A stretch of 42,346 nt of DNA from a virus. A program made the translations under genes and the position numbers. Shown here in pieces: positions 27,714 through 30,419 of the stretch. The notes below the pieces were generated by a model. That model was given only the letters and a program-made list of their open reading frames with translations. It made no database searches and had not been told where the DNA came from. The DNA lies in the IMG/VR virus record IMGVR_UViG_3300022665_000170, positions 1 to 42,346 of that record; one strand, 5' to 3'. The first letter of the stretch is position 1; each line of letters begins with the position of its first letter.

Positions 27714-28793
27714 TTAAAGGTTTTTTTGAGGATTTTTTTCAGATCTCCGCGATATACAAAAATCCGCCAAAATCGGACTCCCCCTGATATCCGACAAGCT
27801 GGATTCAATCAAACCCCGATAATTTTCTATCAGGCTTTTTCTGGTGTACTGGTTAGGAACCGCAATTGTGAGGATTCCGTTTGAAAGTCTTTGAGGGAAG
27901 GTTGACTCAAACCAAGTCTTAAAACTCTCGGCTTGAACCTGTGATTTTATTTTTTGAAGAGCATCGTTCCAGAATTTCTCCAGGATCGGGTCCCCTGAAA
28001 CTCTCGGCTTTGGAGGATCGGGTGACTCATGCGGTCCCTCGATATAATCTGGCTCCTCCTCCGGGATATAATCCTGCCAATTGTTGAACCAAGTTTTCGC
28101 GTGTTTGAAACTGTAATCCCGGAACCCGTTATTGCGTTCGGCCCTCACATCCTTTTGATAGTTTTCCATGGCGGAGTCATATTTCTGGATGTCCTCATAT
28201 TTTTTGATACTGGCATTCCAATGACCTATGGATGCTTTTTTCCCGTCCTTTTTTCCAGGATAGGATTTCCACCTTTTTTCAAAAGCTTCCTGTTTTATGA
28301 TTCTCCATGATTCATTTTCAGAAAGAGAATCCGCCTTTGTTTTATCTTTTGATTTAGAGTTAGAAACAGAGTTAGAAACAGAGACTAAAGAGCTATCGTT
28401 TGCCAATGGCAAAACTATAGCACTGCCATTATCATTTTTTATCTCTAACTCTTTATTTTTCCATCTCTTAGATGCACCTATCTTACCTGCGTTGGATTTT
28501 TTTCTGCGAAAGACTCTTTGTTTTTTGCGTTCTTTCTCCAATCTTTTGTGTAAAAGTTGAAAATTATTTTTAGGATTTTTATAAAAACATTTGGTGATTT
28601 TTTCGAGTTTTTCGCATCGGCTTTTGAGTAAACTTTGAACCTCCTCCGGGTCGGATGGAATCGATCCTTCTTTCCAGCAAATCCCACATAAACGGATATA
28701 ATGACCCTCCTCCTCAGCGGTCATGGCAATCACATTTATATCGTTATTCCAATCATCCGGATAAAATTGGAATGCTGGAGATTTATTGATCAT
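27714..28793 (-). CDS. Replication initiator: DUF1376 domain fused to DnaA-N domain
   Basis: The N-terminus (KSPAFQFYPDDWNNDINVIA, then MTAEEEGHYIRLCGICWKEG) is a DUF1376 domain, a winged-helix module of phage replication proteins. A Ser/Lys-rich linker and a second helical region (KRWKSYPGKKDGKKASIGHW) follow. Residues about 270-335 (FWNDALQKIKSQVQAESF, KTWFESTF, ILTIAVPNQYTRKSLIENY) match the DnaA N-terminal domain that recruits DnaB. The protein probably binds the phage origin and loads helicase, since no phage helicase or polymerase was found. Start taken at the Met before INKSPAF; an ATG four codons earlier (28805) is possible. Overlaps the methyltransferase end. Confidence 0.75.
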   Translation of the reverse strand: MINKSPAFQFYPDDWNNDINVIAMTAEEEGHYIRLCGICWKEGSIPSDPEEVQSLLKSRCEKLEKITKCFYKNPKNNFQLLHKRLEKERKKQRVFRRKKSNAGKIGASKRWKNKELEIKNDNGSAIVLPLANDSSLVSVSNSVSNSKSKDKTKADSLSENESWRIIKQEAFEKRWKSYPGKKDGKKASIGHWNASIKKYEDIQKYDSAMENYQKDVRAERNNGFRDYSFKHAKTWFNNWQDYIPEEEPDYIEGPHESPDPPKPRVSGDPILEKFWNDALQKIKSQVQAESFKTWFESTFPQRLSNGILTIAVPNQYTRKSLIENYRGLIESSLSDIRGSPILADFCISRRSEKNPQKNL

Positions 28794-29664
28794 ATTTATC
28801 AGCATCCATAATTGCTTTTCCTATTATTTCTAAAATTTGAGGGATAACTGCGTTCCCAAGGGCTTTAATTCTGTCCACCCTATGGGGAACCCCATTAGCC
28901 ACTCGACCCACATCGGGTTCACTTGTCCACCACCCTTCTGAGGGGACACCGACAGCCTTACGGCCCATCCTAATTTGTTGGGCTTTGTTCTCCCGTCCGT
29001 GGCCTCCCAATTCATATCGTAAGTCCCTGGGGTGTGTTGGGGAGTAGGCAGAAGTTCCTTTGCATGCGGGCCCATGCCCTCCATCTCCAAAACTTTCCCC
29101 GTCAAAGTTCTTCCGCTGTTTGGTCCCGTTCGACCCTTGTCTGGTTTCCCGCAAAACCCAGCCGCGTCCATTACTGTCACGGTGGGCCACAATCCAGATT
29201 CTTTTCCTTTCGTGCGGGGCTTCGATGGCACAAGCTGGAATATTGAATGCCCGTACTTGGTATCCTTGACCTTCCAAGTCAGAAATCGTACGTTCGAGCT
29301 CCATATTGACGAACCCAGCAACATTTTCTCCAATAACCCAAGCGGGCCCGCATTCTTGGATGACTCTAAACATTTCAGGCCAGAGGTCGCGGTTATCATC
29401 TTTGCCTTTTCGCTTCCCGGCATTACTGAAAGGCTGGCAAGGGAACCCTCCGCAGATAAGGTCAATCCCTCGGATTCCGTCTGCTTCGAGCCGTGATTTT
29501 CTAAGTGTCCGGATGTCTTCATAAATCGGAATTCCTGCAAAGTTTTGTCTTAATAATTTTCTACAAAATTGGTCAACCTCGCAAAATGCCACGGTTTCCA
29601 TGCCAGCCCGTTCCAGGCCAAGACTGAAACCACCAATGCCAGAAAATAAATCAAGAACTCGCAT
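28783..29664 (-). CDS. dcm: DNA (cytosine-5) methyltransferase
   Basis: A 293-aa C5-methyltransferase that transfers methyl from SAM to cytosine. Motif I is DLFSGIGGFSLGLERAG (residues 5-21), catalytic PCQ at 75-77 within GGFPCQPFS, ENV at 113-115, motif VIII RKRIWIVA at 153-160, and motifs IX-X in VGRVANGVPHRVDR and ALGNAVIPQ (252-276). The target-recognition part (165-245) is short, Gly/Arg-rich and unusual. It starts one base after the Dam-like gene. No restriction enzyme neighbours it, so it is an orphan, likely protecting phage DNA. A second long frame overlaps residues 48-278. Confidence 0.92.
   Translation of the reverse strand: MRVLDLFSGIGGFSLGLERAGMETVAFCEVDQFCRKLLRQNFAGIPIYEDIRTLRKSRLEADGIRGIDLICGGFPCQPFSNAGKRKGKDDNRDLWPEMFRVIQECGPAWVIGENVAGFVNMELERTISDLEGQGYQVRAFNIPACAIEAPHERKRIWIVAHRDSNGRGWVLRETRQGSNGTKQRKNFDGESFGDGGHGPACKGTSAYSPTHPRDLRYELGGHGRENKAQQIRMGRKAVGVPSEGWWTSEPDVGRVANGVPHRVDRIKALGNAVIPQILEIIGKAIMDADKYDQ
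28830..29522 (-). CDS. 230-codon ORF overlapping the cytosine methyltransferase in +1 frame
   Basis: Lying wholly inside the methyltransferase gene, this frame runs 230 codons without a stop from an ATG that has AGGA ten bases upstream. Its product carries motifs I recall from stand-alone phage proteins: GPLGLLEKMLLGSSIW, a short FQLVPSKPRT, GLWPT, and near the end NPMWVEWLMGFPIGWTEL. The last motif is the +1 reading of the bases that encode VGRVANGVPHRVDR in the enzyme. Either it is a second real protein (dual coding) or a shadow kept open by strong conservation of the enzyme. The region is poor in stop codons in several frames, which favours caution. Confidence 0.35.
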   Translation of the reverse strand: MKTSGHLENHGSKQTESEGLTLSAEGSLASLSVMPGSEKAKMITATSGLKCLESSKNAGPLGLLEKMLLGSSIWSSNVRFLTWKVKDTKYGHSIFQLVPSKPRTKGKESGLWPTVTVMDAAGFCGKPDKGRTGPNSGRTLTGKVLEMEGMGPHAKELLPTPQHTPGTYDMNWEATDGRTKPNKLGWAVRLSVSPQKGGGQVNPMWVEWLMGFPIGWTELKPLGTQLSLKF

Positions 29665-30099
29665 TTAAGAATTATAGGGTTCTGGAAATATGACGACCAC
29701 AGAAGGGAACGGCGCATTATTTTTAGAGTTCCCAAATTTCAACCGTCCCCTTAAAAATCTTGTTTCTGCTTGCCAATAAATATAATTGTGCCACCATCTG
29801 GTATCAGGCCTGGCCGGCAACAACATCACCACATAAGCCGTTAACCGTTCCTCATAGGCTTTCTTGACCCACTTAGAAATTTGATTGCCATAAGGCGGAT
29901 TAACAAAAACCCTTTCCCCTTCCCAGCTTTGGTCAAGCCCGTTATCCCGAATGGTGAAAAACTTTTCACATTTCGCATTTTCTTTTGTCGCACAAGGATC
30001 CAGAGTGAACTTGAATTCATCATCAAGTTTTTTGAACAAATCCAGAGGCGTTTCCCATTCGCAGGTTTGAGTAGAAAAATGTGGTGTGAACGGTTTCAC
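29665..30099 (-). CDS. Phage Dam-type N6-adenine methyltransferase
   Basis: A 144-aa protein from GTG at 30099, chosen because GTGA overlaps the metallopeptidase stop and AAAGG precedes it. Conserved blocks: TCEWETPLDLFKKLDDEF, FTLDPCATKENAKC, and the catalytic NPPYG (after WEGERVFV) followed by WVKKAYEE. These match the small phage Dam family (PF05869). It adds a methyl group to adenine, probably in GATC. The cytosine methyltransferase follows immediately, so the phage modifies both bases, likely against host restriction. Confidence 0.85.
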   Translation of the reverse strand: MKPFTPHFSTQTCEWETPLDLFKKLDDEFKFTLDPCATKENAKCEKFFTIRDNGLDQSWEGERVFVNPPYGNQISKWVKKAYEERLTAYVVMLLPARPDTRWWHNYIYWQAETRFLRGRLKFGNSKNNAPFPSVVVIFPEPYNS

Positions 30100-30419
30100 T
30101 TCAAAGCCTTTTGGATTAATGGAAAAAGTTTCGGATTGTCTCGCATCACCACACAAAGTCCGGTTGCCATGCCTTCAACCACTTTTTCTTCCTGTTCATT
30201 GGTCAAATCAAACTTGCCCATGTGATGCGAAACAGCGTGTAAGACTTCATGCAAAAGCGTGTTGGCCTGTACCTGAGAATTATATCGCTCATCAATTGTA
30301 ATTTTGGCTTCGTTGTTTTTGCACTGACCTAAATATTTTCCCTGCCTTTTTTCTTCTTCATCCATCAAAAGGATTTCATAATCCAAAGGCATGATCCTGA
30401 TTTTTTTTGGTAATTTCAT
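30096..30419 (-). CDS. HExxH zinc metallopeptidase-like protein
   Basis: A 107-aa protein with LLHEVLHAVSHHMG (residues 56-69), a complete HExxH zinc motif in a helix, and a following acidic segment NEQEEKVVEGMATGL that could supply the third ligand Glu. The fold and size fit the SprT/ImmA-like minimal peptidases frequent in phages. Substrate unknown; roles in host-protein or repressor cleavage have been proposed for relatives. Its ATG overlaps the stop of the nuclease gene (ATGA) with AGGAG upstream. Confidence 0.7.
   Translation of the reverse strand: MKLPKKIRIMPLDYEILLMDEEEKRQGKYLGQCKNNEAKITIDERYNSQVQANTLLHEVLHAVSHHMGKFDLTNEQEEKVVEGMATGLCVVMRDNPKLFPLIQKALK

Follow-up and report, generated by a model that had tools for sequence, protein, structure and literature searches.

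Does the cytosine methyltransferase (MTase) gene of this phage encode a second protein in an overlapping frame? The locus lies on the minus strand of the IMG/VR virus record IMGVR_UViG_3300022665_000170 (positions 1 to 42,346; hereafter, the window). Within the gene for a 293-aa MTase chain, here called alpha, a 230-codon ORF, beta, is read in the +1 frame from an ATG at 29522 to a stop codon that ends at 28830 (Table 1); a TTG at 29540 would be an alternative start, giving 236 aa. A previous reading made from the letters alone (the sequence-only reading) had drawn attention to this ORF with its own ATG and AGGA, and had placed it correctly; the spacing between the two elements is long and the site is weak in the window. 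Both motifs it had named in the +1 product, GLLEKMLLGSSIW and WVEWLMGFPIGWTEL, are present in beta. The frame, it proposed, was either an overlapping second gene, possibly widespread but overlooked, or a translation artefact, and it suggested examining stop avoidance and conservation at enzyme-synonymous sites among homologues. Both comparisons were run, and neither went against a second gene.

Table 1. Features of the alpha/beta locus, in window coordinates.
Feature	Coordinates	Strand	Basis
Alpha, C5-cytosine DNA methyltransferase chain, 293 aa, motifs I–VIII and X	28783–29664	−	PF00145
Catalytic core, motifs I–VIII (alpha residues 1–165)	29170–29664	−	AF2 pLDDT mostly 87–97
Predicted disordered linker at the usual place of TRD and motif IX (alpha residues 166–260)	28885–29169	−	AF2
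Motif X (ALGNAVIP) and C-terminal helix (alpha residues 262–292)	28789–28881	−	AF2
Beta, +1-frame ORF, 230 aa, proposed recognition/motif IX subunit	28830–29522	−	PHROG_1008, constraint, split-MTase homology
AGGA, possible ribosome-binding site of beta	29533–29536	−	Sequence; 10 nt from ATG
Beta-hairpin FLTWKVKDTKYGHSIFQLVPS (beta residues 80–100)	29223–29285	−	AF2 pLDDT about 95; family-conserved
First WPTP-type element, WPTVTVMD (beta residues 112–119)	29166–29189	−	Family consensus WPTPxAxD
Second WPTP-type element, LLPTPQ (beta residues 157–162)	29037–29054	−	P159 and P161 nearly invariant
Motif IX, VNPMWVEWLMGFPIGWTEL (beta residues 201–219)	28866–28922	−	Family conservation, profile alignment

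Comparative evidence for coding in the +1 frame

Considered on its own, the window gene is suggestive only: when its codons were shuffled with protein and codon usage kept, 42 of 20,000 shuffles reached its 239-codon +1 opening (p about 0.002). The relatives carry more weight. We assembled 185 genes, each 200 codons or longer, about 170 of which were fetched through the MTase frame alone and are therefore independent of +1 openness, with the caveat that a few loci originally recovered via beta had served as seeds for the MTase profiles; at 90% protein identity, 188 loci fall into 177 clusters. The longest +1 opening spans at least 60% of the gene in every one of the 185. Its mean reaches 80% in the group of the window gene (33% under the shuffling null) and 89% in an N15/K1H-like group (null 44%), with the other four frames at null levels. 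Among 30 unrelated bacterial C5-MTases, the +1 opening averages 21% and exceeds 60% just once, so the long opening is a property of this family and not of C5-MTases in general.

Conservation at sites that are silent in alpha follows the boundaries of the second frame. Identity at four-fold degenerate sites, taken over 95 diverse genes, is 0.28–0.32 in alpha codons 1–60 (null 0.27–0.28) and 0.43–0.68 over most of codons 61–280, with weaker bins at codons 181–200 (0.39) and 221–240 (0.33), and it is 0.33 past codon 280; the 79 genes of the second group gave a similar profile. Codon positions were compared over 367 aligned pairs, which are mutually non-independent. Variation per site at alpha position 3 is 0.50–0.51 in the alpha-only parts and 0.32 where motifs IV–VIII overlap beta. 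In the TRD region, position 1, the wobble position of beta, varies more (0.447) than the alpha wobble (0.395), a pattern indicating that beta's frame is the more constrained there; in motif IX the corresponding values are 0.228 and 0.189. An SD sequence followed by a +1-frame ATG lies close to where the opening begins in 48 of 96 genes (12.1 expected), and in 50 of 79 genes of the second group (17.7 expected), a clear start site thus being found in only about half of the genes. Together, a frame open beyond chance in all family homologues and excess conservation at alpha-synonymous sites within the ORF, with background levels outside it, are the features of an overlapping gene, and on this comparative evidence the +1 frame qualifies as a real gene and beta as a conserved coding frame.

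Methyltransferase motifs in two frames

What do the two frames encode? Alpha begins with the catalytic core of a C5-MTase, including PCQ, ENV and APHxRxR: PF00145 matches residues 1–166 (E 1.7e-46, Pfam profile search), M.HhaI matches residues 1–163, and Foldseek returned M.HaeIII and M.HhaI. The TRD and motif IX that would normally follow on the same chain appear to be missing from alpha, whose AF2 model has a pLDDT of about 39–50 across most of residues 166–260 and climbs to 87–95 in two C-terminal helices (residues 262–270 and 275–292). The ~95 residues separating core and motif X are therefore predicted to form a flexible linker with no folded TRD; this linker is absent from the split relatives described below.

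Beta carries a canonical motif IX, NPxWVEWLMGFP, together with a variable region containing the WPTP-type elements. Within the motif, N202, P203, L209, M210, G211 and P213 are nearly invariant, and the equivalent segment of one-chain relatives, NPxFVEWMMGxP, was aligned by profile to the canonical motif IX, LTPRECARLQGFPDDF. The sequence-only reading had derived WVEWLMGFP from the bases of the enzyme's own motif IX/X. The bases are indeed the same; what they encode in the MTase frame is VGRVANGVP, directly ahead of motif X, in the predicted disordered linker that leads into it, and the genuine motif IX belongs to the +1 product.

Modelled alone, beta is mostly of low confidence (mean pLDDT 60.5), its confident parts being the hairpin (about 95) and the motif IX helix (about 84), as a partner-dependent fold could look. 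A fold search with this model gave no significant match, the model being too uncertain. Searching Pfam and PDB with the beta sequence gave nothing useful, and a profile search found no solved relative.

Split and one-chain relatives

Relatives in which the two halves are arranged differently are informative about beta. A one-chain-type query matches 575 phage records, and one-chain actinophage MTases such as Tweety gp72 and Darolandstone gp38 end in a C-terminus like AFPEWMMGWPAGWVT...IGNGVVPQQ, a segment that aligns by profile to canonical motifs IX–X, LTPRECARLQGFPDDF...QFGNSV. Since motif IX lies in the MTase frame of some actinophages (CheeseTouch gp88, Tweety gp72), the second ORF is not universal. 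Other actinophage loci are split (Firecracker gp6/gp5, Samora gp34/35, Bumblebee11 gp75/74, DrYang gp77/78), as are several loci from Bacilli (L387–L391): alpha ends just past motif VIII, and an overlapping +1 ORF that matches the beta profile holds PTP-type elements and motifs IX and X. In four clear splits (L008, L079, L201 and L341), motif X is on beta and missing from alpha. Split loci thus drop the TRD of the MTase frame and keep the +1 ORF, which indicates that the former is dispensable and that the beta version is the one retained. Beta, with its motif IX, is by profile comparison a homologue of the second half that split MTases encode separately.

The one-chain and split actinophage enzymes share with the window locus the catalytic core and the type of motif IX segment. 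Unlike the window locus, the former have motifs IX and X on the core chain, and the latter have both on the second ORF, with an overlap of only tens to about 200 nt.

Several individual loci deserve mention. Gordonia phage CheeseTouch (L352:947–1747) has a one-chain MTase, yet also a 267-codon +1 ORF that matches the beta profile until just before motif IX. At two loci, L206 (642–645, on the contig of L065) and L221 (2844–2847), the MTase frame is broken just past motif VIII by a lone in-frame TAA and opens again with motif X, the +1 ORF being open throughout. Possibly, these are intermediates between the nested and split forms. Second ORFs also differ in how many (W/L)PTP-type elements they carry, about eight in DrYang gp78 (L355:775–1980) and several in L391:850–1923, and it is possible that these elements are recognition modules.

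Distribution and annotation of the family

Beta matches PHROG_1008 (E 5.5e-28, model positions 27–281 of 329), as do all 90 aligned +1 products, and the match of split relatives extends to about position 319, motif X included; betas from the two MTase groups align with each other as homologues (hhalign probability 100). By profile, beta and these 90 products are members of this 'DNA methyltransferase' family, a name that conceals members read +1 to a catalytic MTase gene and lacking the catalytic motifs themselves. All 160 loci retrieved with beta are +1 to an MTase (80 in viral genomes, many of them on contigs that the MTase had already retrieved, and 80 in bacterial genomes), every one overlapping it, so that no stand-alone beta homologue was found among the 160. 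Of 200 sampled Bacilli genomes, 12 contained a PHROG_1008 match; 11 of these overlap PF00145 and the twelfth overlaps an MTase-profile match. We classified 347 loci, some contigs being counted twice, as nested (326), cut by a contig end (4) or having the beta frame well past the end of alpha (17, not all of which are true splits).

Most records annotate just one of the two genes. Both appear in a few, among them Paenibacillus phages ('g55 internal gene') and E. coli phage K1H (ORF28/29). The suspicion that the second protein is widespread but overlooked is borne out by these annotations and by the uniform PHROG_1008 membership.

Some genomes hold more than one copy. The chromosome of a Roseovarius MAG has five near-identical nested loci (L307–L311) and genome G136 has three, possibly representing multiple related prophages. 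In a Bacillales locus (L402, 1216–1960, minus strand), one open frame holds both the beginning of the MTase and the segment for beta, and the rest of alpha lies in another, possibly a frameshifted, decayed copy.

A probable two-chain enzyme and its alternatives

Could the +1 similarity be no more than an echo of conserved MTase residues and codon bias, in a frame that is never translated? The bases of motif IX are conserved in alpha too (RVxxGxPxRVDR), which would echo part of the +1 motif, and the shuffles of the window gene taken singly leave some room for chance. Across the family, however, the opening is not recovered by shuffles preserving the protein and its codon usage, conservation of the degenerate bases of alpha is confined to the +1 ORF, and in split relatives the +1 frame continues beyond the point at which alpha ends. 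With the codon-position pattern added to these observations, we reject this explanation, hardly credible by our estimate, and with it the translation artefact considered in the sequence-only reading. A programmed +1 frameshift near motif VIII, joining the alpha core to the +1 frame in a one-chain enzyme, would account for a frame relation that is +1 at virtually every locus, and actinophages do have one-chain enzymes with such a C-terminus. Constraint on the +1 frame starts near alpha codon 61, however, about 100 codons ahead of motif VIII and close to the conserved SD and ATG sites, which disfavours a reading by frameshift only; moreover, nested genes keep the motif X of alpha, needless for a fusion. 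We consider this route very improbable. Somewhat less so, but still unlikely, is a +1 product that is real and has a function of its own, for instance as an anti-restriction protein or MTase regulator, and merely shares the DNA of the enzyme. Selection on beta is silent about what beta does, the part of beta overlapping motifs IV–VIII is without a counterpart in canonical MTases, and a solved relative is lacking from the profile search; against independence speak the canonical motif IX on beta, its homology to a second ORF that in split MTases also has motif X, and its association with an MTase at all 160 loci.

We thus favour, with good though not full confidence, a locus encoding a two-chain C5-MTase, in which alpha would contribute core and motif X and beta recognition and motif IX to a putative active pair. 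The second protein foreseen in the sequence-only reading is supported, and is most likely not an unrelated product; beta would be the half of this enzyme that alpha lacks, the one recognising DNA. Alpha would fold into the AdoMet-binding and catalytic core (motifs I–VIII, with the catalytic cysteine) plus the motif X helix. Beta would be translated in the +1 frame from its own internal start, about 47–60 codons into alpha, bring the variable recognition region (hairpin and WPTP-type elements) and motif IX, and pair with alpha to form an active orphan enzyme that might protect phage DNA against restriction. Expression of beta, heterodimerisation, sequence recognition and the anti-restriction role are our inferences. 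A further scenario appears doubtful to us, albeit worth stating: the N-terminal half of beta was overprinted on motifs IV–VIII, the gene thereby making its own obligate partner, and the WPTP-type elements serve as interchangeable recognition modules through which methylation is retargeted with the catalytic chain intact.

A PHROGs scan of ten neighbouring genes found a DNA methyltransferase of another family, a replication protein and no restriction enzyme among the ten, making an anti-restriction role the natural reading. The other methyltransferase (PHROG_111; 29665–30156, minus strand) abuts the start of alpha, and a replication-type gene (27714–28805) overlaps its end by 23 nt.

If true, two proteins are encoded by many phage and prophage genes of Firmicutes, Proteobacteria and Actinobacteria that are annotated as a single 'cytosine methyltransferase'. 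A codon-optimised alpha cloned alone would lose beta and might wrongly be scored as 'inactive'; specificities, too, would need to be assigned to beta. The locus family further offers a well-sampled set of long same-strand overlapping phage genes, whose split and one-chain relatives show how such overlaps form and resolve.

Comparison with known two-chain methyltransferases

How does this arrangement relate to known enzymes? M.BatI, an orphan C5-MTase from a prophage, has a gene 20–30% below the usual size and an unusually short TRD, and was tested as the native gene, in vitro translation included (PMC8936443); a nested beta, if present, would therefore have been co-produced. Compared by description, M.BatI may be another nested case, which we regard as a lead only. 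Our search for its kin found related Bacillales genes with both frames, M.BatI itself not being identified among them. Its native gene showed methylation-independent toxicity in E. coli (PMC8936443); if it also encodes beta, the second protein would be worth considering for this effect.

In M.AquI, an alpha/beta C5-MTase, the second chain holds the distal variable region and motif IX (PMC3404938). Split relatives likewise have two chains, the second with variable region and motif IX, and here motif X as well. The window locus differs: its motif X remains with alpha, and beta lies inside the alpha gene instead of following it, so that a second chain uniting variable region, IX and X is found in the split relatives and not in the window.

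The closest likeness is to M.EcoHK31I (YGGCCR; Lee, Kam and Shaw 1995), termed naturally split (PMC3439449) and described as a two-polypeptide C5-MTase whose large chain has motifs I–VIII, X and a predicted TRD and whose small chain has motif IX (PMC3404938). By this description, the window locus too has I–VIII and X on the large chain and IX on the small. The predicted TRD of M.EcoHK31I is on its large chain, whereas the TRD region of the window alpha is predicted to be disordered and the most constrained variable region is that of beta; moreover, the window gene belongs to a phage, and no restriction partner was seen for it. When E. coli genomes were searched with the N15-type gene, the hits were related prophage MTases and did not include M.EcoHK31I. 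The small-chain ORF of M.EcoHK31I is said to lie in a different frame inside the large-chain gene; if so, the mechanism is not new in kind. Two-polypeptide C5-MTases were already established, and our literature search found no description of the nested overlap in phages. To these enzymes we add the split and one-chain relatives, a measurement of selection in both frames and, as the new element, a family-wide and deeply nested version, mostly unannotated, in phages that infect many hosts.
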